Source: Desulfobacterales bacterium (GTDB taxonomy: Bacteria > Desulfobacterota > Desulfobacteria > Desulfobacterales > RPRI01). Taken from it: a DNA stretch of 10,323 nt. The notes below the pieces were generated by a model. That model ran no database searches. It was not told the origin of the DNA and saw only the letters and a program-made list of their open reading frames with translations. Within the stretch, counting starts at the first letter, position 1. Every line of letters starts with the position of its first letter. Of the stretch, positions 1 to 10,323 are shown piece by piece. Made by a program: the position numbers and the translations under genes. The DNA lies in NCBI GenBank assembly GCA_020052975.1, contig JAGVOC010000472.1:1-10323 (forward strand). Reading direction: 5' to 3'.

Positions 1-285
1 GAAAAAGCCCTGCATGATATTGGGATTAATTTAAACACCCTAAAGGTTATAGCTGAAATGGGGAGTACCGAAGCGATCAGGCAAGGGATCAAGGCTGGAA
101 TCGGCATATCTATTCTCTCCAAGAGGGCAGTGGAGAATGAATTGAAACTTAGGGTGCTCCTGGAAGTCAATATCCAGGGTCTTGAACTCATTAGACACTT
201 CTATATCGTATTTCATAAAGGAAGAACAAAGTCCCCTCTGTTAGAGGCATTTATTGGTTTCTTAATGGAAAACCATCCTATTTAG
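1..285 (+). CDS. LysR-family transcriptional regulator, C-terminal fragment (5' end outside window)
   Basis: The reading frame is open from base 1 and ends at TAG 283-285, giving 94 residues with no start codon inside the window. The stretch around residues 20-40 (MGSTEAIRQGIKAGIGISIL, then SKRAVENEL) is the typical end of the LysR substrate-binding (effector) domain, where a Gly-Ser-Thr turn and an Ala-Gly-hydrophobic-Gly segment line the ligand cleft, as in CysB/CbbR-like members. The remaining residues finish the domain with a beta strand (FYIVFHKG) and a last helix (LLEAFIGFLM). Full-length relatives are about 300 residues, so roughly two thirds, including the winged HTH, lies to the left. 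An internal ATG at 58 exists but falls within the conserved domain and is not a real start. The effector and target genes cannot be told. It converges on the defence operon and is probably unrelated to it. Confidence 0.85.
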   Translation, partial: EKALHDIGINLNTLKVIAEMGSTEAIRQGIKAGIGISILSKRAVENELKLRVLLEVNIQGLELIRHFYIVFHKGRTKSPLLEAFIGFLMENHPI

Positions 286-472
286 CGGTTATATTCAAAG
301 TCCTACCAATCAGTCTGAATTAGGAAATCCCCCCGCCAGTCTGCCGACAGGCAGGCAAAACATGTATAAAACATCTCTATCCTTCTCTAACGGGGCAAGG
401 CGCCGGACAGCTTGTCTCGTCGTTGCGAAGCAATTTTACGGGAACTTTGATTGTTGGGGTAAGGGAAGGCAA
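286..472. other. Convergent intergenic region, no gene seen
   Basis: These 187 bases separate the LysR stop from the Res stop, so both genes end into it. I see no open frame of note, no tRNA fold and no convincing rho-independent terminator for either gene. It holds a GC-rich palindrome at 339-356 (listed separately) and a 7-bp inverted repeat, TTGATTG at 447-453 with CAATCAA at 470-476, that overlaps the Res stop codon. That second repeat has a 16-base loop and no T-run after it on either strand, so it is a weak terminator candidate at best. Confidence 0.6.
339..356. repeat. Small GC-rich palindrome, REP-like
   Basis: CTGCC (341-345), loop GACA, GGCAG (350-354) form a hairpin that extends outward by a T-G wobble pair and a G-C pair to 339-356, seven pairs in total, preceded by a CCCCCC-type run at 329-334. 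GC-rich palindromes of this type are often dispersed many times between genes of bacterial chromosomes (REP-like elements). Only one copy lies in this window, so the repeat status is inferred. It could act as a bidirectional transcript end between the two convergent genes, although there is no T-tract. Confidence 0.35.
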
Positions 473-3151
473 TCAACTTAGATTAAATTCATATTGTTTG
501 ATTAAAATATCTAATCTCATATTTAACATAACTGCATTATGAGGAATTAGGATATATTTCCAAGGCTTTCCATTATTTTCAGTCGTAAACTTAGTTGCAT
601 TTTGACAATATTCTAAGGCCGCCTGAGATTTTGCCTGAACTTCAGATGTCTCAATATCTCCCTCTTTCTTGGTCTCAACCATATAAATCGCGTCCTGAGT
701 TTCAACGATAAAATCAGGGGTATATTGCCGTGAATTATACTTCCAATAAATGTTGAATTGGCTTTGGGCTGGGCGTAGCCATCTTAAAACATCGGCATCA
801 TTTTCCAAGATGACAGTAAAGTCTTTCTCTGTTTTAGAATCAAATTTATAGAATGTATGACACGCCTTCTGAAATCCACTAAAGACCTTAGTCGGTATTG
901 AATTAGTAGGTATAATTGTGTCTGTATAATGATGAATTTTATCCTTTGTGTATTTAGAAAAATTGTGTTCTTCAATCTTGGTAAATGGCTTTACGATAGG
1001 CTTTTCAAATTCAGGAGCTTCAAAATAGAAATGTTCCATAAGTTGAGAATGGATATACCGGCCTATCTCACGTTTATGATATTGCACTACATTAATTAGT
1101 TTTTCTGAATCCAAATAGGTTTTAAACTTATCGATAGCCTGATTTGCCAGTTTAAAGAGCAAATCTGCGTGTCTGTCATATTCAACCTCCGGAGAGTTAA
1201 TAAGTTCATTGACAACTATCCTTTCAGGATGGTCAATAACTATCTTCCCGCCACCAATAATCGTATCATATGCATTATCTTGTTCCCTTAGCTTCTTTAC
1301 CAATATTTCTTCTGATACCGGCTGAAAATTCAAGCGGCCCACATCAAGGTCAAAATCTTTAAAACCTGAGCGTACTTTGTCACTTTGCTGAATAATAATA
1401 CGGGGTATTTCAATAACATTCTTAACAAAACGGTTAACTATCGTCTCGTAAACCTCTTCAATCTGTTTAATCATATCGCCAGCAAATAGATCAAGCTGAG
1501 GGGTACTCTGTATCTTCTCCTTTATCTTTTGAATAGCGATCTCTTTGATCTCAATTTTATTGAGGTCATGTATGCTGGTTACAGAACTGCTTAATTCCGG
1601 TAACATGTCAACTATTGCCTCTTTAGCCTTATTATTCACTAAAGCTTGCTGTTTCTCTTCAGGCTTTGTTATCTCTTGAATACGTTTTTCTTCTTGCGCT
1701 ATCTCTTGCTGCAAGCTAGAAGTCGAAGTCATAACTTCTTTGGGTTGGCTTAAATCATCAGCATCAATTTCAATAATATTTTCTCGTCTAATAATAGATC
1801 CGGGCTTATTAGCCTCATCGATAATCTCTTGAAACCTGTCATGTGCAACAATGGTTAGCTTATCAGCCTTATCCACGCCTGTTCTCTTTCCGTATGGCAG
1901 TCTTAAACCCCTGCCAATCGTTTGTTCTCTTAACGTCACAGAAGCAGCTGTTCGTAGTGGAATAATCGTATAAAGGTTGGTCACGTCCCATCCCTCTTTG
2001 AGCATGTTCACATGGATAACTATCTCAATATTGTTACTCGGATCTTCTAAAGACAATAATTGCGCAATGTTTTCATCCTTTTCTTCCCCGCGTTGATTAG
2101 AATGAATCTCCATTACCTTGTCTGCATAGTACCCATCAAAAAAGGCTTTAGAGCAGATCAATTCCTTAAGTTTTCCTGCATGTGTAGTGTCTTTGGCAAC
2201 AACAAGTACAAATGGTTTAACTAACCGGGTTTTCTTATCCCGCGCATAAATATCCAAAGCAACCTTCGTATCTTCATGAATTCGAACACCATCTTCTAAT
2301 TTAAGCTGGTCTAACTCATCTATGGAATAATGGCTTGGATCGAAATTCTTTCGTGTTGCTACGGCAGGTTCTTTTACAAAACCGTCAATAATTGCCCTGG
2401 CTAAAGAGTATTCATACACAACATTCTTAAATTTTATTGGGCCCCCGCTTCGTTCCACCTGAGGAGTTGCAGTCAATTCTAATCCTAATATTGGGTTCAG
2501 CTCATTAATTACCTGCATCCCTCTATCTGCCCGGTAATGATGTGATTCATCCATTAGCAGAACTAAGTCTTTAAGATTCGATAAATAGTTGAAATAAGAA
2601 TCTCCAATATACTCGGACAATCTCTTGATGCGGGCAACATTGTTACCCCGGGTTTCTGCGTTGATCTTTGATATATTGAAAACATTAATATGAACTTCTG
2701 ATTCGAAGATAGTCAATTGTCGTGCCTCGTGGTAATTCTCACCGGTAATCACACGTGGCCTATTATTAACAAATTCGCCGATGCCCTGAAATACATACTT
2801 TGGATGCGCCGGGTTAGAGAAGTCGTTATTTAATTTGTTATAGATAGTCAAATTGGGAGCCAGGACAAAGAAGTTTTTGATTCCTTTGGCTAAATATAAA
2901 TAGGCGATAAATGCCCCCATGAGCCTTGTCTTTCCTACACCAGTTGCTATCGAGAAACAAATGGATGGGAAATCTCTTTCAAAATCAGAGCAAGTCGGGT
3001 GAGCGCTATTGACCTTTTGAAGTTCTTCATAAAGATTCGCATTCTTTTGCAGTGTTAGTTTATCCGCCAAGTCAGCTAAAATATTCAAGCTATCTGTCTG
3101 GGGTGGCCGTAAACTGAGGCGATTCTTAATAGCGTTGGCTATTTTATTCAT
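473..3151 (-). CDS. res: Type III restriction-modification system endonuclease subunit Res (SF2 helicase plus PD-ExK nuclease)
   Basis: The Res subunit hydrolyses ATP and cleaves DNA in complex with Mod. Numbered from the ATG at 3151 (892 aa), a Walker A (ATGVGKT, 69-75), Walker B/DEAD motif (DESHH, 201-205), motif III (TATPQ, about 228-231) and motif VI (EQTIGRGLR, about 409-417) form the SF2 helicase core; the segment NMLKEGWDV before motif VI is typical of Res proteins. Near the C-terminus PDF (D813) is followed 13 residues later by ETK (E826, K828), the PD-(D/E)xK nuclease signature, so both activities look intact. Length fits Res proteins (about 850-1000 aa). A GTG at 3160 would add three residues, but AGGAGG touches it directly, whereas the same AGGAGG is 9 nt from the ATG at 3151, so I chose the ATG. 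It overlaps the end of mod by 8 nt, suggesting translational coupling. It is the last gene of the operon; stop is TGA. Confidence 0.92.
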   Translation of the reverse strand: MNKIANAIKNRLSLRPPQTDSLNILADLADKLTLQKNANLYEELQKVNSAHPTCSDFERDFPSICFSIATGVGKTRLMGAFIAYLYLAKGIKNFFVLAPNLTIYNKLNNDFSNPAHPKYVFQGIGEFVNNRPRVITGENYHEARQLTIFESEVHINVFNISKINAETRGNNVARIKRLSEYIGDSYFNYLSNLKDLVLLMDESHHYRADRGMQVINELNPILGLELTATPQVERSGGPIKFKNVVYEYSLARAIIDGFVKEPAVATRKNFDPSHYSIDELDQLKLEDGVRIHEDTKVALDIYARDKKTRLVKPFVLVVAKDTTHAGKLKELICSKAFFDGYYADKVMEIHSNQRGEEKDENIAQLLSLEDPSNNIEIVIHVNMLKEGWDVTNLYTIIPLRTAASVTLREQTIGRGLRLPYGKRTGVDKADKLTIVAHDRFQEIIDEANKPGSIIRRENIIEIDADDLSQPKEVMTSTSSLQQEIAQEEKRIQEITKPEEKQQALVNNKAKEAIVDMLPELSSSVTSIHDLNKIEIKEIAIQKIKEKIQSTPQLDLFAGDMIKQIEEVYETIVNRFVKNVIEIPRIIIQQSDKVRSGFKDFDLDVGRLNFQPVSEEILVKKLREQDNAYDTIIGGGKIVIDHPERIVVNELINSPEVEYDRHADLLFKLANQAIDKFKTYLDSEKLINVVQYHKREIGRYIHSQLMEHFYFEAPEFEKPIVKPFTKIEEHNFSKYTKDKIHHYTDTIIPTNSIPTKVFSGFQKACHTFYKFDSKTEKDFTVILENDADVLRWLRPAQSQFNIYWKYNSRQYTPDFIVETQDAIYMVETKKEGDIETSEVQAKSQAALEYCQNATKFTTENNGKPWKYILIPHNAVMLNMRLDILIKQYEFNLS

Positions 3152-4817
3152 ACAGGTCACCCTCCTCTTCAGGTAAATCTATGATATTCAGCATGTAATC
3201 CTCTTTACCAAATTCGCATCTGCCAAGCACAGCTTGAGGGATCTTCTTAATTGTAATTTCAGCATACTTGTCTTCACAGGCTTTCTGATAAGACTTGGCA
3301 CAAATAAGAAGGCTTTCCCCCTCCTTCATTTCTTCATGAATTTTGTCTAAAAGTTCTATTGTTACAAACTGGGTAGTCGTGAATATGAAATCTTTCTCCG
3401 TTGATTGACCTTGCTTCCAATAAACTTGTTCATCGGGAGAATATTTAAAGCCCTCATGCTTTGCCATAGCCGCAGCCAGCATATCCGCGTTATATTTCTC
3501 ATCAATAACCCAATTATCATATTTGTCTTTCTTTAAGAGACTCGGGGATAGATAGTAATATTTAAACCCTCCACCACCCTTCCAATTTTGTGACTTAGAG
3601 GCACCTGATTGGTCTTTTCCATCTATAACACTTTTAAATCTCGGTATACAATGTGTATGGCAATGTTCTCCCAATTCAACACCGAGCCATTTCCTACCCA
3701 TTTTATGAGCAACTGCAGCTGTTGTGCCAGAACCAAGAAACGAATCAAGAACAATATCGCCCGGTGAAGAAAAATGCTTTAAAATAAGCTCTATTAGTTT
3801 TTCAGGTTTTTTACCACTTCTAAAGTCCGCACCACCTTCTAAGCGGCAATTCCCAAATTCTGCCGTCATGTCATAGTAATTTTCTATTGGCCTTGTCCGT
3901 CCATCCGTCTTTCCTCCTAGTTGACTAATAGGGACACCTTGATAATACTTACCTTTTGTTGCTCCTTCTCGTTTTGGTCCAGTGAAATATCTAAAATCAA
4001 ATTGATCATCACCAATACCATAAATTTTATATAATACACCCAAGCCATCTTTATCTGAAAGTCCTGCTAAAAAATCTCTAAAATATCTTCCTGAAGAATT
4101 CCCATCCAGAATAGTCCCTGAAGCCCAAATTTCTTTTAATCCCTTTTCTGATCCCTCTCCTTTTTTGATTTCGTACTCATCTTTTTGAAAAATAACCCCC
4201 TTTTTCCCTCCTAATACAATTTCCTTGCCTTTAGCTTTTTCATTTACGTAATAACAAAATTTATCAAGGGATGTTGTTATCTTATTAAGATTGGGCTTTG
4301 CGCCGAACTCTTTTCTGTAAACGTGTATCTGCTCTATCTGTTTATGAAAATCCATATCCTGTTTTAAGGTTTTGGTTGCATATCTAACTTGCACATAAAT
4401 TGTTGTTAGATAATTATTTCTACCAAATACCTCATCCAACAGTATTTTTACATAATGACCTTCAGCATCGTCTATCTGACAACACAAGAAACCATCATTG
4501 CTTAAAAGCTTATGCAATATTTCTAAACGGGGCTTCATCAGCGATAGCCATAATGAATGCTCTAAGGAATCATCATAATGTTCGAAAGCATTACCTGTAT
4601 TGTAAGGAGGATCTATATAAACACATTTGACTTGATTTGCGAAATCCTGTTCTAATGCTTTAAGAGCCAGAAGATTGTCCCCATAAATAAGCATATTCTC
4701 AGTATTCTTATCACCATAAGATTTCTCGGGATCCTCAATCAAAATACGCGGTTCAAGCTTAATTTGTTCGTCTTTGCCAATCCAGGTTAACTCAAGCTTT
4801 TGTTTCTTATTATTCAT
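3144..4817 (-). CDS. mod: Type III-like site-specific DNA (adenine-N6) methyltransferase, Mod subunit
   Basis: This enzyme would transfer a methyl group from S-adenosylmethionine to adenine in a short recognition site, and supply DNA recognition to Res. Numbered from the ATG at 4817 (557 aa), the catalytic motif IV DPPYNTG is at 69-75 and the SAM-binding motif I (DSFLGSGTT) at 358-366. This order, catalytic motif first, marks the beta class used by type III Mod proteins. The segment QIDDAEGHYVK and DEVFGRNNYL after motif IV is typical of the family. Residues about 140-330 hold the variable, Lys/Glu-rich target-recognition domain. The C-terminal part (GGGGFKYYYLSPSLL) also matches Mod. A TTG at 4844 in frame would add nine residues, but AGAGGA lies 6 nt before the ATG at 4817 and the gap to the SNF2 stop is then 19 nt, so I chose ATG. 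N4-cytosine activity is possible for DPPY enzymes but less likely here. Its order directly before res is the usual mod-res arrangement. Confidence 0.93.
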   Translation of the reverse strand: MNNKKQKLELTWIGKDEQIKLEPRILIEDPEKSYGDKNTENMLIYGDNLLALKALEQDFANQVKCVYIDPPYNTGNAFEHYDDSLEHSLWLSLMKPRLEILHKLLSNDGFLCCQIDDAEGHYVKILLDEVFGRNNYLTTIYVQVRYATKTLKQDMDFHKQIEQIHVYRKEFGAKPNLNKITTSLDKFCYYVNEKAKGKEIVLGGKKGVIFQKDEYEIKKGEGSEKGLKEIWASGTILDGNSSGRYFRDFLAGLSDKDGLGVLYKIYGIGDDQFDFRYFTGPKREGATKGKYYQGVPISQLGGKTDGRTRPIENYYDMTAEFGNCRLEGGADFRSGKKPEKLIELILKHFSSPGDIVLDSFLGSGTTAAVAHKMGRKWLGVELGEHCHTHCIPRFKSVIDGKDQSGASKSQNWKGGGGFKYYYLSPSLLKKDKYDNWVIDEKYNADMLAAAMAKHEGFKYSPDEQVYWKQGQSTEKDFIFTTTQFVTIELLDKIHEEMKEGESLLICAKSYQKACEDKYAEITIKKIPQAVLGRCEFGKEDYMLNIIDLPEEEGDLYE

Positions 4818-4836
4818 AAATTCCTCTCGTTCTAAA

Positions 4837-7779
4837 TTAAACAACCTTCCAGCGAATCTGAAAAAGCTCTTTCAAAGAAGTTTTCTGCTTAAGCTGTGCT
4901 TCAACACGCTGGATAAATTCTTCTTTTCTATTATCAACTTCGTCTTGAGCGTCGAATAACTTTTTGCGCATTTCGTTCCGTTTCTTTTCCATATCCTTTA
5001 TCTTGCGTTGCTCTTTCACCTTCTCTTCAAGTTTCAGAATCTTCTTGGCGTTTGTTTTTGAGGATTTAATATCAATATCCAGCTTCTTTAACTCCAATTC
5101 GAGAGCTTTCTTCATATCATCGGCCCATTTATCCAACTTATCGACTTCATTATCAAAATACTCGCTGTTACGCTCAGCACTGCGCATTGTTATAAGATTA
5201 ATAATTTCCTGCTCTAAATTACTGATCTTTTTCTTCTCACTTTCATTAACAACACATGATGAGCCATTAATATCAGCTTTTAGGGAAAATAGTTTTTTAG
5301 CGATGTCCGAATCAATTACTTCACCATCATTATCTAAGGCGGACAAAATTACATGGTCTTCTGCTTCCAGGGATTCTATTGTGTAGTTGCTTGCCTTCAA
5401 AATTCCGGTCTTGCCGATTAATGGCTTTAACACAGAGATGATTGTAGGGTTGTTAGAATAATCAAAAATAATTTCGGCTTCTTCTAGAGGTTTCCTCTTA
5501 ATAACATTTAGAATCTTTTGAGCCAAAGGATGCCCTGGCCGGTAAATATGAGCATCCTCAATATTCTTGCCAATCCTGTATGGACCCGGATGTATATTTT
5601 CTTCTGGGAAAGGATTGCTTTTAAGCATGAAAGAATATTCATGCTCCGCAAAATCAGCATTATCTTGAAGATAATATCGGGTGGTATCCCAAAGCCATCG
5701 TTCATAAATATCAAGGAAAAGCTGACTTTCTCGTATGTTAATTTTCAATTTTTCATGAACTTCTGAATCAAAGTTTTCGAGAAGTTTCTGACGAGTGTCC
5801 ATCAAATTATTTTTAATGCTTTCATCCATTTCGTTCTGTAGGGCATCAAATGCAGTATTTATTTCATCTTCTGTTCGGCAGCTCTGATAAATGGCAGCTA
5901 TCCTTTTTTCAAAGTCAACACCTGATTCAATGCTTCCCAAGACTTCATCGCTTGCGCCGAAAACACCTTTAAAGAGATTAAATTTTTGATCTAAAAGTTC
6001 GTAAACCCTCTGGTCAGCGGCATTCTTGCGATTCACAAAGTTTATAACAACCACGTCATAATTCTGCCCATATCTATGACATCTGCCAATTCTTTGCTCA
6101 ATCCGTTGAGGGTTCCAGGGTAAATCATAATTTATAAGCAATGAGCAGAATTGAAGGTTAACGCCTTCTGCCCCGGCTTCAGTGGCAATCATAATTTCTG
6201 CTTCATCTTTGAAATAGTCTATAATGGCCGCGCGCTTATCTGCCGTTTTAGAACCGGTAATCTTATCGCTGTCCCTGTTTTTCTCTACCCAGTCTCGATA
6301 AATTGTTTTAGATTTATCATCGTTATTTGATCCGTTGAATAAAACTATCTTATCATCGTAACCTTTCTCAGAAAGAAGCCTCAAAAGGTAATCCTGGGTG
6401 ATTCTTGACTCAGTAAAGATAATTGCTTTCCTTTTGGCGCCTAATTCGGCAGCCATTTCAAAACCTTCTTTGAGAGCGATCAACAACGCCTCTCCCTTAG
6501 AGTTCTTCCAGATTATTTTTGCCAAATCACGATTCTTCTCAAGATCGGCCTTCTCTTGTTTCATAAGAACGATATCTTCCTTGGTATAAGACACATTCTT
6601 CTTTGTCTTTTCTTCTCCGTCCTCCTCTTCTTCATCGCTCCATTCGTCTTCGAGTTCATCAAGATTCTCAACATCTTCGTCCAGACCCTGTATGCCAGTT
6701 TCTTCTTCAAATAACTGTTCCTCGGCCTCTTCGATTAGTTTAGTTAATCTATATACAAGGCTGTTTAATGTACTTACGATTGCGAAAGAAGAAGATGCTA
6801 ATAATTTCCGTAAGATAAGAGTAATCAACTGACGCTGGCTGGATGGAAGTGCAAATAAAACAGGGCGTTGGAGGTATTCTGACATTCTGTTATAAAGCTC
6901 TATTTCCTGTTCTGATGGTATATAGTCCTGTGTTAATGGGATGCGTTTAGTATATTTGATATATTCCAAGACCTGCCTACGCAACGTACGGGTACAAATA
7001 GGCTTCAAGCGATTCCGCAACTCTGTAAACATTTCTTGCCTTGGCTCAATTAAACCTAATTCACTTTCATAAATATCTTGTTCTCGTGAAACTCGTGAAT
7101 AATTAACCTTAAAGCTTTTTAAATCACCGAATACATGCTCGTCAATGACGCTGACCAAGCCGTAGAGTTCAAGAAGAGAGTTTTGAAGAGGTGTTGCCGT
7201 AAGTAAAATTTTAGGCACTTCAATTAATGTATTCTTTATTTCCTTTGCTATTTTATTGCTGGTCTTGTAAACATTCCGCAAGTGATGCGCTTCATCTATA
7301 ACCGCCAAATCCCATTGTATCGGTTTTATGTATGGCGATTTTGAACGTGCAAAATGATATGAACAAATGACAATTACATCCTTTTGATCAAATGGATTGA
7401 GATTACCTTCTTTTATGTATTGATTAAATGATTTTGCCTCAAGGATAATGGAAGGGATAAAAAATTTCTCTTGAAGTTCTGCATTCCATTGTTTTCGTAA
7501 ATTCGCTGGAACAATTAAGAGTATCTTTCTTCTCCTCTCCGCCCATTTCTGCGATAGAACAAGTCCGGCCTCAATTGTTTTCCCAAGCCCTACCTCATCC
7601 GCCAAGAGTGCGCCTCTGGAAAGAGGGGAACGAAAGGCAAAAAGAGCAGCCTCAATCTGATGCGGATTAAGATCAACCTGCGCATTAGAAAGCGTCGAAG
7701 ATAACTTTTCAAGATTATCCGAAGCGCACCTTTTGGTTAATTCATAAGCAAAATATTTTGCGTGATAAGCCGTAATCAC
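4837..7779 (-). CDS. SNF2/RapA-like DEAD/DEAH-box helicase (dsDNA translocase) of defence operon
   Basis: A 980-residue SF2 ATPase, expected to move along double-stranded DNA without strand separation. After a short N-terminus (YHAKYFAYEL) come the Q-like segment LNPHQIEAA, Walker A (ADEVGLGKT, 60-68), DEAH-box (DEAHH, 162-166), TATPLQN (194-200), and in the second RecA lobe TEAGAEGVNLQ (533-543) and motif VI (QRIGRCHRYGQ, 562-572). IGRxHRYGQ is characteristic of RapA/HepA and DISARM DrmD relatives. An acidic insertion (residues about 354-392, with EEEEDGEE) sits between the lobes, and the last roughly 130 residues are Lys/Glu-rich and read as a long coiled coil. The start is GTG at 7779, whose first base lies in the last UvrD codon (GTGA overlap); GGTGAAGGG lies just upstream. 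Its place before mod and res suggests it works with the R-M enzyme, perhaps in DNA scanning or protein displacement; that role is inferred. I see no nuclease motif. Confidence 0.88.
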   Translation of the reverse strand: MITAYHAKYFAYELTKRCASDNLEKLSSTLSNAQVDLNPHQIEAALFAFRSPLSRGALLADEVGLGKTIEAGLVLSQKWAERRRKILLIVPANLRKQWNAELQEKFFIPSIILEAKSFNQYIKEGNLNPFDQKDVIVICSYHFARSKSPYIKPIQWDLAVIDEAHHLRNVYKTSNKIAKEIKNTLIEVPKILLTATPLQNSLLELYGLVSVIDEHVFGDLKSFKVNYSRVSREQDIYESELGLIEPRQEMFTELRNRLKPICTRTLRRQVLEYIKYTKRIPLTQDYIPSEQEIELYNRMSEYLQRPVLFALPSSQRQLITLILRKLLASSSFAIVSTLNSLVYRLTKLIEEAEEQLFEEETGIQGLDEDVENLDELEDEWSDEEEEDGEEKTKKNVSYTKEDIVLMKQEKADLEKNRDLAKIIWKNSKGEALLIALKEGFEMAAELGAKRKAIIFTESRITQDYLLRLLSEKGYDDKIVLFNGSNNDDKSKTIYRDWVEKNRDSDKITGSKTADKRAAIIDYFKDEAEIMIATEAGAEGVNLQFCSLLINYDLPWNPQRIEQRIGRCHRYGQNYDVVVINFVNRKNAADQRVYELLDQKFNLFKGVFGASDEVLGSIESGVDFEKRIAAIYQSCRTEDEINTAFDALQNEMDESIKNNLMDTRQKLLENFDSEVHEKLKINIRESQLFLDIYERWLWDTTRYYLQDNADFAEHEYSFMLKSNPFPEENIHPGPYRIGKNIEDAHIYRPGHPLAQKILNVIKRKPLEEAEIIFDYSNNPTIISVLKPLIGKTGILKASNYTIESLEAEDHVILSALDNDGEVIDSDIAKKLFSLKADINGSSCVVNESEKKKISNLEQEIINLITMRSAERNSEYFDNEVDKLDKWADDMKKALELELKKLDIDIKSSKTNAKKILKLEEKVKEQRKIKDMEKKRNEMRKKLFDAQDEVDNRKEEFIQRVEAQLKQKTSLKELFQIRWKVV

Positions 7780-9737
7780 TTTGTTTTCCCTTCACCTTTT
7801 ATCTTTAAAAGCTGCGCCCCTCTATTTGCGCGTGGGCAGGTGCTTCCTAGATCAGTAATAAATCTTGACATGATTGTGGATGCATGTGTTTTTACCCCTC
7901 GTGTAACTTTTGCCCTAATTTTAAACGCCTCTCTCCTTTGAATTTGGGTAAAACTAGAGATAATCAAAATATTTCGTGTTCTTGTAATAGCAACATAAAA
8001 AAGACGCCGCTGCTCCTCAAGTTGCCGGAGTTCCTGAGCAGACGGCAAATTATCTTCGATATGAGGGACTAATCCTTCGACGCAACCTACAACGGCAACC
8101 ATATCAGCGGAAAGCCCTTTTGATTTATGCAAACTCATAATACGAACATAATCTACATCTGTTGGTAATTCCGGCTGGGTAATATTCGTTCTAAGATGCT
8201 CGTATAATATTTTAGCATCAAACTTATCACCCCCTATTGCTCTGCACATTGAGCGAAGTGAAACGGCCCACTCTGCCATATCTGGAAAAATAGCATCAAC
8301 AAGTCTTGTACCAGTTAAATTAGCCTGCCTTTGCAATGCTTGTTGTAATAAACGAAATCGTTGTATTATTGAAGTCGTATAAGGCAATTTAATTCTATCT
8401 TTCGTTAAGGATTCAAGGACTTGATAAGGTTGTTCTCCCGTCTGTTCACAATGATTTCTAATTGAGTTCCATCCTGTATGGTTCAATGAGGCACTTCCAA
8501 AACCACACCAGCACCTTAGAGCAACACAATCCTCTCTATTTGCAAGCAATGTCAGTAATGTAAATGCCTGCTGTGCTTGAGATTCATCAAGTTCACTCGG
8601 CTTTCCATCCAGTTCTTCTTGATGAAAGAAGCTATGAGCGGGGATGTCAAGTCGGTGCAATGCTTCTCTGACTAACGCTCCTAGTAAACGTCTCGGTGCT
8701 AAAACAAGAACTTTTCCGGGTTCAACAACCCCTCTTACTATCTCATTTTTAATTAGTTGCGCTATACCTTTTGCCTCATCATAAACACTTGGCCATTGCA
8801 CAATCTGCACATCACCGGTAAGGTTCTCCGGGCGAGGTTTAATTGATCTATCAACACGTTCATTATTATGGACAATCAGAGCATTGGCCAAATCGACAAC
8901 ACTCTTAGGGCAACGATAACAATCCGTTAAATCCTCCTCATGAGTCCCGGGGTGAGTGGCTTCAAATTGAGTAACACCATCCGGATGAGCAAACCTGAAT
9001 GAATAAATAGATTGATTCTCATCGCCGATTACAGTAAGACTTTTGCCTTCAGCGAGTATATCGATAAGCACCTGATCGGCCCTATTCAGATCCTGATACT
9101 CATCGACCAAAATAAAATTAAATATTGTCTTAATATCTGATTCCGGATTATTGCGTAAAAACTGTAACGCCTGTGGAACCAATTCCCCGATTAACATTGC
9201 CTTATGGAATCTTAGCCAACTCATAAGCGTTGCATGGAACTGCTTGTCAATGGGGTCCAATGGCCACCCTGGTTCTTCTGACTGAAGACGAGCCCATGCA
9301 GCATCAAATGCTCTTAATCTTGCTTCACAAGCTCTCACAGCACCGTACTCGTTATCGCGTATATCTTCTAACATGAATCTAATTTCATATGACAGTAAAG
9401 GACGCGGAACTCGTTGGGTTATTTCCATAACCCTAGCACTAGACAAGAAACCGAAACAAAAGGCGTGAATAGTTGTTGCATTAACTTCAGAAGCCCCCTG
9501 AACTTGAAGTTCCCGTAGAGATTTCTTCAAATCAGTTGCAGCAGTTCGAGTAAAAGTACAAACCAAAATCTGGCCCGGAAAGATACCTTCTTCAAGCAAA
9601 CGTGCCACACGGCGCATCATTGAAAAAGTTTTTCCTGTCCCCGGGCCCGCTAGAACACACAAAGGCGAATCCTGAGTTTCCGCGATACGTCTAGCCGGAC
9701 CATCTAATCCTTGTATCCAATGAGGTTTTTGATTCAT
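7776..9737 (-). CDS. UvrD/PcrA-like SF1A ATP-dependent DNA helicase
   Basis: An SF1A 3'-5' helicase of 653 residues from the ATG at 9737. Motifs in that numbering: Walker A (AGPGTGKT, 30-37), Ia (CTFTRTAATDLK, about 60-71), II (DEYQD, 212-216), III (GDENQSIYSFR, 238-248), IV (YRCPKSVVDLAN), V (MSLHKSKGL, about 534-542) and VI (YVAITRTR, about 581-588). All ATPase residues look intact. The canonical Q-motif (LNxxQ) is not seen: the corresponding place reads LDGPARRIA. At about 650 aa it is shorter than UvrD (about 720) and lacks an obvious nuclease domain. A GTG at 9758 would add seven residues; its AAGGA lies about 17 nt away and the ATG has GGAG about 15 nt away, so neither start is well supported. 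It overlaps the SNF2 gene by 4 nt. Arg and Ala are more frequent than in its Lys/Ile-rich neighbours, which may mean a separate origin. Its partner role in defence is inferred from the operon only. Confidence 0.88.
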   Translation of the reverse strand: MNQKPHWIQGLDGPARRIAETQDSPLCVLAGPGTGKTFSMMRRVARLLEEGIFPGQILVCTFTRTAATDLKKSLRELQVQGASEVNATTIHAFCFGFLSSARVMEITQRVPRPLLSYEIRFMLEDIRDNEYGAVRACEARLRAFDAAWARLQSEEPGWPLDPIDKQFHATLMSWLRFHKAMLIGELVPQALQFLRNNPESDIKTIFNFILVDEYQDLNRADQVLIDILAEGKSLTVIGDENQSIYSFRFAHPDGVTQFEATHPGTHEEDLTDCYRCPKSVVDLANALIVHNNERVDRSIKPRPENLTGDVQIVQWPSVYDEAKGIAQLIKNEIVRGVVEPGKVLVLAPRRLLGALVREALHRLDIPAHSFFHQEELDGKPSELDESQAQQAFTLLTLLANREDCVALRCWCGFGSASLNHTGWNSIRNHCEQTGEQPYQVLESLTKDRIKLPYTTSIIQRFRLLQQALQRQANLTGTRLVDAIFPDMAEWAVSLRSMCRAIGGDKFDAKILYEHLRTNITQPELPTDVDYVRIMSLHKSKGLSADMVAVVGCVEGLVPHIEDNLPSAQELRQLEEQRRLFYVAITRTRNILIISSFTQIQRREAFKIRAKVTRGVKTHASTIMSRFITDLGSTCPRANRGAQLLKIKGEGKTK

Positions 9738-9777
9738 ATTAGATAATTTAATCTCCACTACTCGATTAGTAAGAATC

Positions 9778-9796
9778 CTTTGTCATGTTTACAAAG
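9778..9796 (-). promoter_or_regulatory. Possible hairpin in HTH-UvrD gap
   Basis: CTTTGT and ACAAAG form a 6-bp inverted repeat with a 7-base loop in the gap after the HTH stop codon. On the transcript the 3' arm overlaps AAGGA, the only Shine-Dalgarno-like run serving the GTG at 9758. There is no T-run behind it, so it is not a normal terminator. It may slow translation or attenuate read-through into the helicase genes; a short stem like this can also occur by chance. Confidence 0.2.
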
Positions 9797-9798
9797 CT

Positions 9799-9972
9799 TT
9801 ATTTGTTCGTCCTCGCTTTAATAAAATCTTTCAAATCCTTTGGCTTAACTTTCCACTGACCAATCTTAACCGCACGTATTTGCTTTTCACGAATAAGTTC
9901 ACGCACCCGGTATTCAGATAGACCAAGTTCTTTAGCAACCTGTTTTACTGTTAAATGCCCTTTAAGTAACAT
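9799..9972 (-). CDS. Small helix-turn-helix (excisionase/MerR-like HTH_17) DNA-binding protein
   Basis: A 57-residue protein with the pattern LTVKQVAKELGLSEYRVREL followed by IREKQIRAVKIGQWKVKPKDLKDFI. This is the winged-HTH fold of the excisionase family (HTH_17): helix-turn-helix at residues about 7-26, then a short wing with a conserved Gly-x-Trp and a closing helix. Proteins of this kind bind DNA as small regulators or as excision factors. An in-frame ATG at 10020 would give 73 residues, but it lies inside the predicted -10 box (TATAATG) and lacks a good ribosome site, while the ATG at 9972 has CAGAGG 7 nt upstream. I therefore chose 9972. It is the first gene of the operon, 61 nt before the UvrD start, so I expect a transcriptional regulator of the defence genes rather than a phage excisionase; no integrase is present here. 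Confidence 0.8.
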   Translation of the reverse strand: MLLKGHLTVKQVAKELGLSEYRVRELIREKQIRAVKIGQWKVKPKDLKDFIKARTNK

Positions 9973-10001
9973 ATTATAACCTCTGTTTTTTATACTACGA
10001 T

Positions 10002-10015
10002 GATCAATATTGTTC
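10002..10015. promoter_or_regulatory. Candidate operator: imperfect palindrome over the predicted transcription start
   Basis: GATCAATATTGTTC pairs with its own reverse complement at 12 of 14 positions around a perfect CAATATTG core (10005-10012). It lies immediately downstream of the -10 box and covers the expected transcription start near 10012. That is a common place for a repressor site. The adjacent HTH protein is the obvious candidate binder, giving autoregulation. AT-rich short palindromes are frequent by chance. Confidence 0.3.
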
Positions 10016-10018
10016 CAC

Positions 10019-10046
10019 ATTATACAACATTATTTTCCAATAACAA
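10019..10046 (-). promoter_or_regulatory. Sigma70-type promoter of the defence operon
   Basis: On the minus strand TTGTTA (10041-10046; 4 of 6 matches to TTGACA) is followed after 16 bases by a perfect TATAAT (10019-10024). Transcription would start about 7 bases downstream, near 10012, leaving a leader of about 40 nt before the HTH start at 9972. No other strong promoter was seen within the operon, and gene overlaps suggest all five genes depend on this one. The consensus -10 implies substantial basal strength unless repressed. Confidence 0.6.
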
Positions 10047-10323
10047 TAAAAATCCAAAGAGATGAGTAGTCACTCAAAAAAGAGGAAATTATCACAACTG
10101 TAAATCTCACAACACCTAACTTGAGCCACAATGTCCCATCTTGTCACTTTGACCCACTTTTTGATCCTTTTATATCAGCATCTCAACAGCTACTATCAAG
10201 AATAGGTGCAATACTGTCTCAATATCAAAATCTTAAGCTACAATCAAAACATACCAATAATGTCATTAAAGCTTGTGTTATCAAGCCTGGAAAGGTTTTA
10301 TAAATAGGTCTATGATTTTTGGC
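10021..10323. other. Operon upstream region, no convincing gene
   Basis: This stretch contains the promoter, AT-rich leader-proximal sequence and two related 14-bp units at 10125-10156. A 60-codon frame on the plus strand (10121-10303, TTG start) lacks a ribosome site and recognisable domains, and I do not accept it. On the minus strand a frame is open from the window edge for about 33 codons and then stops; too short to judge, it could be the tail of a neighbouring gene. Confidence 0.5.
10125..10156. repeat. Two imperfect 14-bp direct repeats, possible insertion-sequence end remnant
   Basis: Read on the minus strand, TGGGTCAAAGTGAC (10143-10156) and TGGGACATTGTGGC (10125-10138) match at 10 of 14 positions and begin 18 bases apart; TCAAG follows. 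Repeated TGGGTCA/GTGAC-type units are reminiscent of the multiple terminal repeats at ends of IS21-family elements. That family assignment comes from memory of such ends, not from an alignment, and no transposase gene is in the window. Confidence 0.3.

Follow-up and report, generated by a model that had tools for sequence, protein, structure and literature searches.

In the window examined here, a 10,323-nt stretch of a Desulfobacterales contig (JAGVOC010000472.1), the genes of a type III restriction-modification (R-M) pair, mod and res, follow genes for an SNF2-type ATPase, a UvrD-like helicase and a small helix-turn-helix (HTH) protein, and the locus raises the question of whether all five belong to one conserved system or whether some were added to an existing one. 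Judged from the sequence and from the gene neighbourhoods of relatives, it is highly probable that the locus is a mobile type III R-M system of the three-gene class SNF2-Mod-Res with an HTH gene, and that the UvrD gene was recruited between the HTH and SNF2 genes. SNF2-Mod-Res is a known class, and its combination with UvrD and a regulator was found here in one lineage only. Our confidence refers to the class and to the recruitment of UvrD, and it overlaps with that given to the first two rival readings discussed below, which differ on how UvrD works.

The five-gene set and its insertion

The frame listing of the window gave five genes, all on the minus strand, in the 5' to 3' order HTH, UvrD, SNF2, Mod, Res. 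The four large proteins, with the nuclease domain of Res, are:

7776..9758, minus strand, UvrD/PcrA-like SF1A (superfamily 1A) helicase, 660 aa, motifs present, rare family
4837..7779, minus strand, RapA/DrmD-like SNF2 ATPase of 980 aa, homologous to the third gene in the type III locus of Escherichia coli NCTC86
3144..4844, minus strand, type III Mod (N6_N4_Mtase), 566 aa, DPPY at residue 78 and motif I at 367
473..3160, minus strand, type III Res, superfamily 2 (SF2) ATPase with C-terminal nuclease, 895 aa
599..760, minus strand, C-terminal PD-(D/E)XK / TnsA-like nuclease domain of Res, residues 801-854

Library scans with Pfam, PADLOC (best 25 matches per protein) and NCBIfam, together with the frames, confirmed the gene set named by the original prediction. 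Pfam assigned UvrD-helicase/UvrD_C to UvrD, SNF2-rel_dom/Helicase_C to SNF2 with no nuclease domain, N6_N4_Mtase to Mod, and ResIII to Res together with a TnsA-like nuclease domain barely over its cut-off (26.7 versus 26.5 bits). In PADLOC, run on the window as had been proposed, Mod scored best with MTase_III, at 518 bits, and Res with REase_III, at 626 bits. Using motif patterns drafted from general knowledge of the families, the expected catalytic motifs were found in all four large proteins, as had been claimed: ATGVGKT, DESH, TATP, QTIGRGLR and PDFIVETQDAIYMVETK in Res, DPPY and DSFLGSGTT in Mod, DEVGLGKT, DEAH, LTATP, GAEGVNLQ and QRIGRCHRYGQ in SNF2, and AGPGTGKT, TFTRTAA, DEYQD, GDENQS, HKSKGL and RRLFYVAITR in UvrD. 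Among these is a PD-(D/E)XK signature in the C-terminal part of Res. Mod therefore has the motifs I and IV (DPPY), and Res the SF2 ATPase motifs and C-terminal PD-(D/E)XK nuclease, by which type III enzymes are recognized. Type III systems are also marked by methylation of a single strand and by a requirement for two inverted sites in cleavage.

Of the overlaps on which the proposed tight coupling rests, that of the UvrD and SNF2 frames measures 4 nt. The overlaps of SNF2 with Mod (8 nt) and of Mod with Res (17 nt) both rest on TTG/GTG starts; from alternative in-frame ATGs at 4817 (the likelier start of Mod) and 3151 (Res) they would become a 19-nt gap and an 8-nt overlap, respectively, and a 40-nt gap separates HTH from UvrD. 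The grouping of the five genes is more than chance, because SNF2 and UvrD have many full-length relatives and all the genes share one insertion, whose position is as follows:

331..10104, no strand, inserted block; positions 1-330 and the sequence from 10105 on match neighbouring stretches of the empty site in genome G005
1..285, plus strand, C-terminal portion of a LysR-family regulator of the chromosome, which flanks the insertion on the left

In the comparison with G005, homology extends up to position 330 on the left and resumes from 10105 on the right, with 39 bp between these points in G005; with G002-G004, the left edge came out between 286 and 319, and the right edge at either 10105 or 10121. 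The insertion of approximately 9.8 kb is thus absent from all four same-genus genomes compared (G002-G005). In these four and in the same-family genome G007, the LysR gene and a TonB-like gene, which lies beyond the right end, are neighbours, approximately 0.6-1 kb apart; in G006 and G008 the LysR match was weaker, and the two genes did not turn up side by side. In the nearest genome, G001, a contig that starts inside the SNF2 gene is identical to window 7453-10323. Apart from the five genes, the insertion holds short frames that mostly overlap them. Pfam, applied to the five proteins, detected no mobility gene among them, though the HTH protein belongs to an excisionase-type family; no useful repeats were found inside either end stretch, each searched separately. 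Arrival of the block in a single event is the simplest reading, and stepwise build-up in place is the alternative.

The SNF2 gene among its Mod-Res partners

In order to place the SNF2 gene, we considered the best 80 of 534 genome-scan matches. Mod and Res both lie downstream and on the same strand in 50 of the 53 loci with at least 7 kb of downstream sequence, and both lie downstream in 54 of the 63 with at least 2 kb. Two of the three exceptions among the 53 have an incomplete SNF2 gene (L068, L069), and the third (L038) has Res in two frames and no Mod. Mod was found upstream of SNF2 in one of 44 loci with 8 kb of upstream sequence. An altered order was seen at L033:1-2166, with Mod directly upstream of SNF2 and Res downstream, and L073:14223-18900 is an SNF2 locus with two Mod genes ahead of one Res.

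On plasmids, an SNF2 gene lies within 9 kb in all 22 records that hold Res at 80% coverage or more (15 from Salmonella, mostly copies of a single locus, 2 each from Aeromonas and Roseomonas, and 1 each from Ketogulonicigenium, Sphingopyxis and Paracoccus), as established from coordinates for 14 Salmonella records and Paracoccus and from annotation for the rest. Eight more records match less of the Res query, and of two that were examined, a Deinococcus plasmid has SNF2 and a Gordonia plasmid carries Mod-Res without it. In the Aeromonas plasmids pMC64A (L190:5774-12001) and pE31A (L221:8813-12001), transposase genes separate mod from res, and in pMC64A the mod annotation covers a short 504 bp.

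Three Res types occur among the SNF2 loci (models RESA, RESB and RESC). The RESA type gave 42 sets, made up of 41 loci and the window; in one locus, L169, Mod and Res fall outside the range counted behind SNF2. Pairwise identities in these sets, uncorrected for the shared ancestry of the loci, gave Spearman coefficients of 0.71 (Mod-Res), 0.33 (SNF2-Res) and 0.30 (SNF2-Mod), all of them beyond the values from 2,000 permutations. When only the 23 sets near the window were taken, the corresponding values were 0.62, 0.34 and 0.03, and under a stricter filter (21 of the 80 loci, each compared with the window alone) Mod-Res reached 0.66 while SNF2 with either partner was not significant (0.11 and 0.23). 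SNF2 is therefore tied to its partners, but more loosely than Mod is to Res. Draft contigs labelled as Patescibacteria groups, Ignavibacteria, Gammaproteobacteria and Rickettsiales (L009, L011, L013, L014, L018-L024 and L026) carry SNF2 proteins 65-74% identical to that of the window, which suggests wide horizontal transfer or else misbinned contigs.

A published member of this class is Eco86II of E. coli NCTC86; we equate locus and enzyme by strain and gene order. According to Murray et al. (2021; PMC8259958), a gene for a helicase-like ATPase lies 5' of mod in Eco86II and in over 500 genomes, and the window has its SNF2 gene in the same place. The NCTC86 locus encodes, in order, SNF2 (963 aa), Mod (1,040 aa) and Res (1,126 aa). 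Its SNF2 protein aligns with that of the window over the full length (46% identity in 1,007 columns, 827 bits), whereas the Mod matches are confined to two motif stretches of 84 and 90 residues and the Res proteins show no significant similarity (25.8 bits, E 0.016). The window shares the order SNF2-Mod-Res with this Eco86II/BspHIV class, whose mark is N4-methylcytosine, although the sequence of the window Mod was not taken to tell this mark from N6-methyladenine. Unlike the window, NCTC86 has no UvrD annotated within a 20-kb stretch.

Judged by the alignments, a single SNF2 family serves Mod-Res cores that differ widely, and genes of defence type frequently stand between it and Mod. In 34 of the 61 loci in which Mod follows SNF2, the two are separated by one or more same-strand frames of at least 140 aa. 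Among 20 proteins scanned from these loci, 3 were Mod or Res types, 1 gave no match and 16 had other domains, many of them of defence type: DUF2130, AIPR, OLD-type AAA/TOPRIM, HerA, SMC/AAA-type ATPases, Schlafen AlbA_2, SIR2, AbiV HEPN, Bro-N, Fic and GmrSD/HNH. E. coli strain 164 has the order HTH, SNF2, Abi, AIPR, Mod, Res, without UvrD, and its SNF2 gene recurs at 96% identity or more in 29 of 5,426 complete E. coli genomes. One gene cluster of approximately 430 aa, whose L025 member is a DUF2130 protein by Pfam, was present in 13 of the 80 SNF2 loci (L002, L025, L035, L042, L043, L045, L046, L053, L056, L059, L061, L070 and L071), in 11 of them between SNF2 and Mod. The window UvrD may be the same kind of addition, but upstream of SNF2.

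The UvrD-like helicase and the HTH gene

The UvrD protein belongs to a well-defined family, most of its 120 best matches being 53-63% identical and nearly full length. No member was found at any of the 80 SNF2 loci, 58 of which have more than 2.6 kb of upstream sequence. In phylum samples searched with a profile of 24 members (E <= 1e-150), two of them without a positive control, the family was present in 4/297, 0/294, 2/301, 1/398, 1/247 (G001 itself), 1/145 and 0/178 genomes, that is at eight loci outside G001 in 1,860 genomes drawn, and among 99 related genomes it was found in G001 alone (E <= 1e-60). Conversely, on the stretches fetched, the SNF2 family of the window lies beside none of these eight UvrD relatives. 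As the family is rare and is carried by 0/80 SNF2 loci, UvrD does not share the Mod-Res history of SNF2. HTH-UvrD-SNF2-Mod-Res can accordingly not be upheld as a conserved five-gene system. Homologues lying mostly away from mod-res, the finding named beforehand as speaking against an extended system, were seen for UvrD and not for SNF2; an extended type III system is thereby supported as regards SNF2, a third ATPase that has been published, but not as a conserved set of five.

Two SNF2 loci were considered as UvrD-SNF2 pairs and rejected. At L074, a helicase of 1,036 aa lies on the same strand as SNF2 and approximately 2.6 kb upstream, the interval being occupied by genes of either strand; it aligns with the window UvrD in best stretches of 29-35% identity and reaches 69 bits in the best single one, compared with at least 408 bits for the eight family loci. 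At L016, a gene of 872 aa on the opposite strand, approximately 4.7 kb away, gave a best stretch of 52 bits.

The surroundings of the eight relatives differ. At L184, which came from the sample around a Chloroflexota-labelled contig (L036), a type III Mod end of 108 aa, lying where the contig stops (43 bits), and a Res precede a UvrD 38% identical to that of the window, on the same strand; the whole run on one strand (L184:4215-13835) is Mod end, Res, UvrD, an unknown gene, a C5 methyltransferase and an HATPase protein. At L219, a type I set of hsdM, hsdS and hsdR follows the UvrD relative, and L178 has a methyltransferase/HerA cluster, with a nuclease-helicase-methylase protein of 1,474 aa on the other strand. 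A PIN-domain gene lies by the relative at L177, L176 and L185 have no clear partner, and L183 is a short contig. At L179:6009-7421 a distant SNF2-type protein of 470 aa (78 bits) is encoded on the opposite strand, divergently and directly beside the UvrD relative, possibly another SNF2/UvrD pairing. Flags for one TAG and two TGA codons accompany the UvrD matches at L185:9024-10952 and L183:2956-4878, for which decayed genes, draft errors or match edges may account. In the viral_contigs scan, one relative matched most of the length (L095, 43%), the phage collection held none at E <= 1e-40, and the one match in the plasmid collection at E <= 1e-60 is a partial relative from Rhizobium with transposase genes on both sides.

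The upstream end of the operon comprises:

9799..10020, minus strand, small HTH_17/excisionase-family DNA-binding protein, 73 aa, or 57 aa from the ATG at 9972
10019..10046, minus strand, sigma-70-like promoter match TTGTTA-16-TATAAT (10/12, the best of the window), directly before HTH, a consensus match alone
10002..10015, no strand, imperfect palindrome with 11-nt arms, 91% complementary, just after the -10

The likelier start of the HTH gene is the ATG at 9972, which stands behind AGAGG, and its product is a probable regulator, for which the palindrome is a possible candidate operator. Promoter-like matches number 25 in the window against 29.2 expected in shuffles, and terminator-like counts likewise do not exceed those of shuffles. 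Of 97 loci scored, 9 have a gene of the HTH_17 type at most 100 bp ahead of SNF2 (L031, L034, L052, L055, L068, L069, L090, L091 and L094); L090, L091 and L094 served as seeds of the HTH model, which leaves 6 independent cases in the 80 genome loci. This adjacency of HTH and SNF2 without UvrD fits the insertion of UvrD into an existing operon. At L215:2814-3014, the HTH gene of E. coli strain 164, with neighbours in the order SNF2-Abi-AIPR-Mod-Res, is named mads1 (methylation-associated defence system, MADS) by NCBI. For the window, membership in MADS was rejected, as TIGR01764 was the sole NCBIfam match of the HTH protein and none of the five proteins matched a MAD model, although it was not checked whether NCBIfam includes such models.

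Rival readings, known systems and proposed working

Several points weigh against the recruitment of UvrD to a three-gene system. The SNF2 loci were found with two conserved SNF2 peptides and are the best-matching part of the scan, these loci also supplied the genes for the Mod and Res models, so that the counts are descriptive and not an independent detection, and the UvrD searches scored no more than 8 top candidates per genome, by which some relatives were perhaps missed. In the Eco86II study, the third ATPase was not required for methylation, and none of its peptides were present in a preparation with partial DNA cleavage in vitro (PMC8259958); a role of SNF2 in cleavage is therefore conjectural, and the result suggests that SNF2 is not needed for cutting naked DNA. 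Furthermore, the 4-nt overlap, the single insertion and the presence of R-M genes near three of the eight UvrD relatives (L184, L219 and L178) are compatible with UvrD as a true subunit.

Among the rivals, the one that fares best, though we regard it as rather unlikely, takes the locus for two neighbouring systems, an HTH-UvrD unit beside an independent SNF2-Mod-Res with only the transcript in common. The 50 of 53 loci in which SNF2-Mod-Res does without UvrD agree with it, as do the UvrD relatives that have no clear partner or keep other company, such as the PIN-domain gene; the overlap of UvrD and SNF2, however, suggests translational coupling, and an HTH gene directly precedes SNF2, with no UvrD, both in E. 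coli strain 164 and in 9 of the 97 loci scored.

Somewhat less credit is due to a true four-enzyme machine, in which UvrD and SNF2 would be obligate subunits and three motors would act in sequence. Its model is the antiphage system ARMADA type II (PMC12458937), in which a methyltransferase works together with an SNF2 protein, a helicase of the UvrD family and one further SF2 helicase, and in which deletion of any of the four genes abolished protection. The likeness lies in three motors, among them a SNF2/RapA-like and a UvrD-family protein, around one methyltransferase. The 4-nt overlap, the common insertion and the relatives beside type III Mod-Res, type I hsdMSR and the methyltransferase/HerA cluster also favour such a machine. 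A further precedent comes from polyvalent proteins, in which a methylase-SWI2/SNF2 dyad (PMC5512222) is joined in a few actinomycetes by a UvrD-like helicase, a giant Streptomyces plasmid protein uniting all three modules, and whose authors liken the dyad to type III enzymes; besides ARMADA, this is the nearest precedent that we found for methylase, SNF2 and UvrD together. Unlike the window genes, these modules are joined in a single giant polypeptide that belongs to mobile elements and is thought to protect them, and do not make up a separate Mod-Res operon. ARMADA type II itself has a PglX-like methyltransferase, a YprA helicase and a UvrD fused to a RelE-like domain, none of which was seen among the window proteins: the library scans named ResIII and a type III Mod instead (the ArmB/ArmC sequences were not compared), and Pfam found in UvrD helicase and AAA domains only, the helicase match starting at residue 23, and no RelE-like N-terminal domain. 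Together with UvrD at 0/80 SNF2 loci, and no SNF2 of the window family beside the eight UvrD relatives, this speaks against obligate subunits, and ARMADA type II is a tested analogue of the window set but a different system. It is equally doubtful, on the sequences compared, that SNF2 is a general helper of at least three exchanging Mod-Res core types, some of them without significant Res similarity, and UvrD a working fourth subunit in a type III counterpart of ARMADA, the three motors acting in sequence on phage DNA.

A DISARM variant after loss of drmABC is very improbable: a DrmD-like SNF2 beside a DNA methyltransferase is a likeness, and DrmD is the top model for SNF2 (691 bits in PADLOC, 695 bits in NCBIfam), but the latter score is under the 950-bit cut-off of DrmD_b, SNF2 has Mod-Res neighbours in 50 of 53 loci, and DrmA, DrmB and DrmC are the best model for none of the five proteins, DrmA matching SNF2 alone (116 bits, far under DrmD) and DrmB and DrmC not occurring among the matches listed.

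Membership in other systems was likewise rejected. The best PADLOC match of UvrD is GajB of Gabija (189 bits), but Pfam and PADLOC found no GajA OLD/TOPRIM nuclease among the five proteins, and no DUF499 ATPase, as described for BREX-Related systems (PMC12839542), was found there by Pfam. Classical type III systems such as EcoP15I are described in the review literature as having two genes, without SNF2 or UvrD; the window Mod matches 4zcf_A (81 bits), and the Res core weakly matches the EcoP15I Res chain 4zcf_C (35 bits). In the open-access literature covered, with subscription papers and most preprints outside it, a UvrD added to SNF2-Mod-Res was not found, and UvrD-SNF2-Mod-Res is not described in the available parts of PMC2292703, PMC10853773, PMC12602166, PMC12707154, PMC9142583, PMC7251935, PMC7641849 and PMC12839542.

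For SNF2-Mod-Res with a recruited UvrD, we infer each biochemical step, and likewise autoregulation by the HTH protein, as follows. Mod would recognize a short asymmetric site and methylate one strand; Mod with Res would recognize unmodified sites, the Res ATPase would free the complex to slide, and Res would cut. This scheme of recognition, sliding and cutting is established for EcoP15I-type enzymes, and its extension to the window system is presumptive. SNF2, to which RapA is the nearest solved structure by sequence, is kept across different Mod-Res cores, and a generic task is therefore likely; as a RapA-like translocase it may displace proteins from phage DNA, or remodel and reset stalled Mod-Res complexes. 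UvrD would be an accessory peculiar to this lineage, whose probable task is the unwinding of DNA that has been cut or nicked. The joint function of the genes goes beyond what gene-level data settle.

The third ATPase of this class was published in 2021 without a known role, and the diversity of its partners, as between the window and NCTC86, argues for a generic role, for instance in clearing proteins from DNA. A single SNF2 family with differing Mod-Res cores provides pairs of systems for direct swap comparisons, and the addition of UvrD lends itself to the question of whether additional motors broaden restriction.

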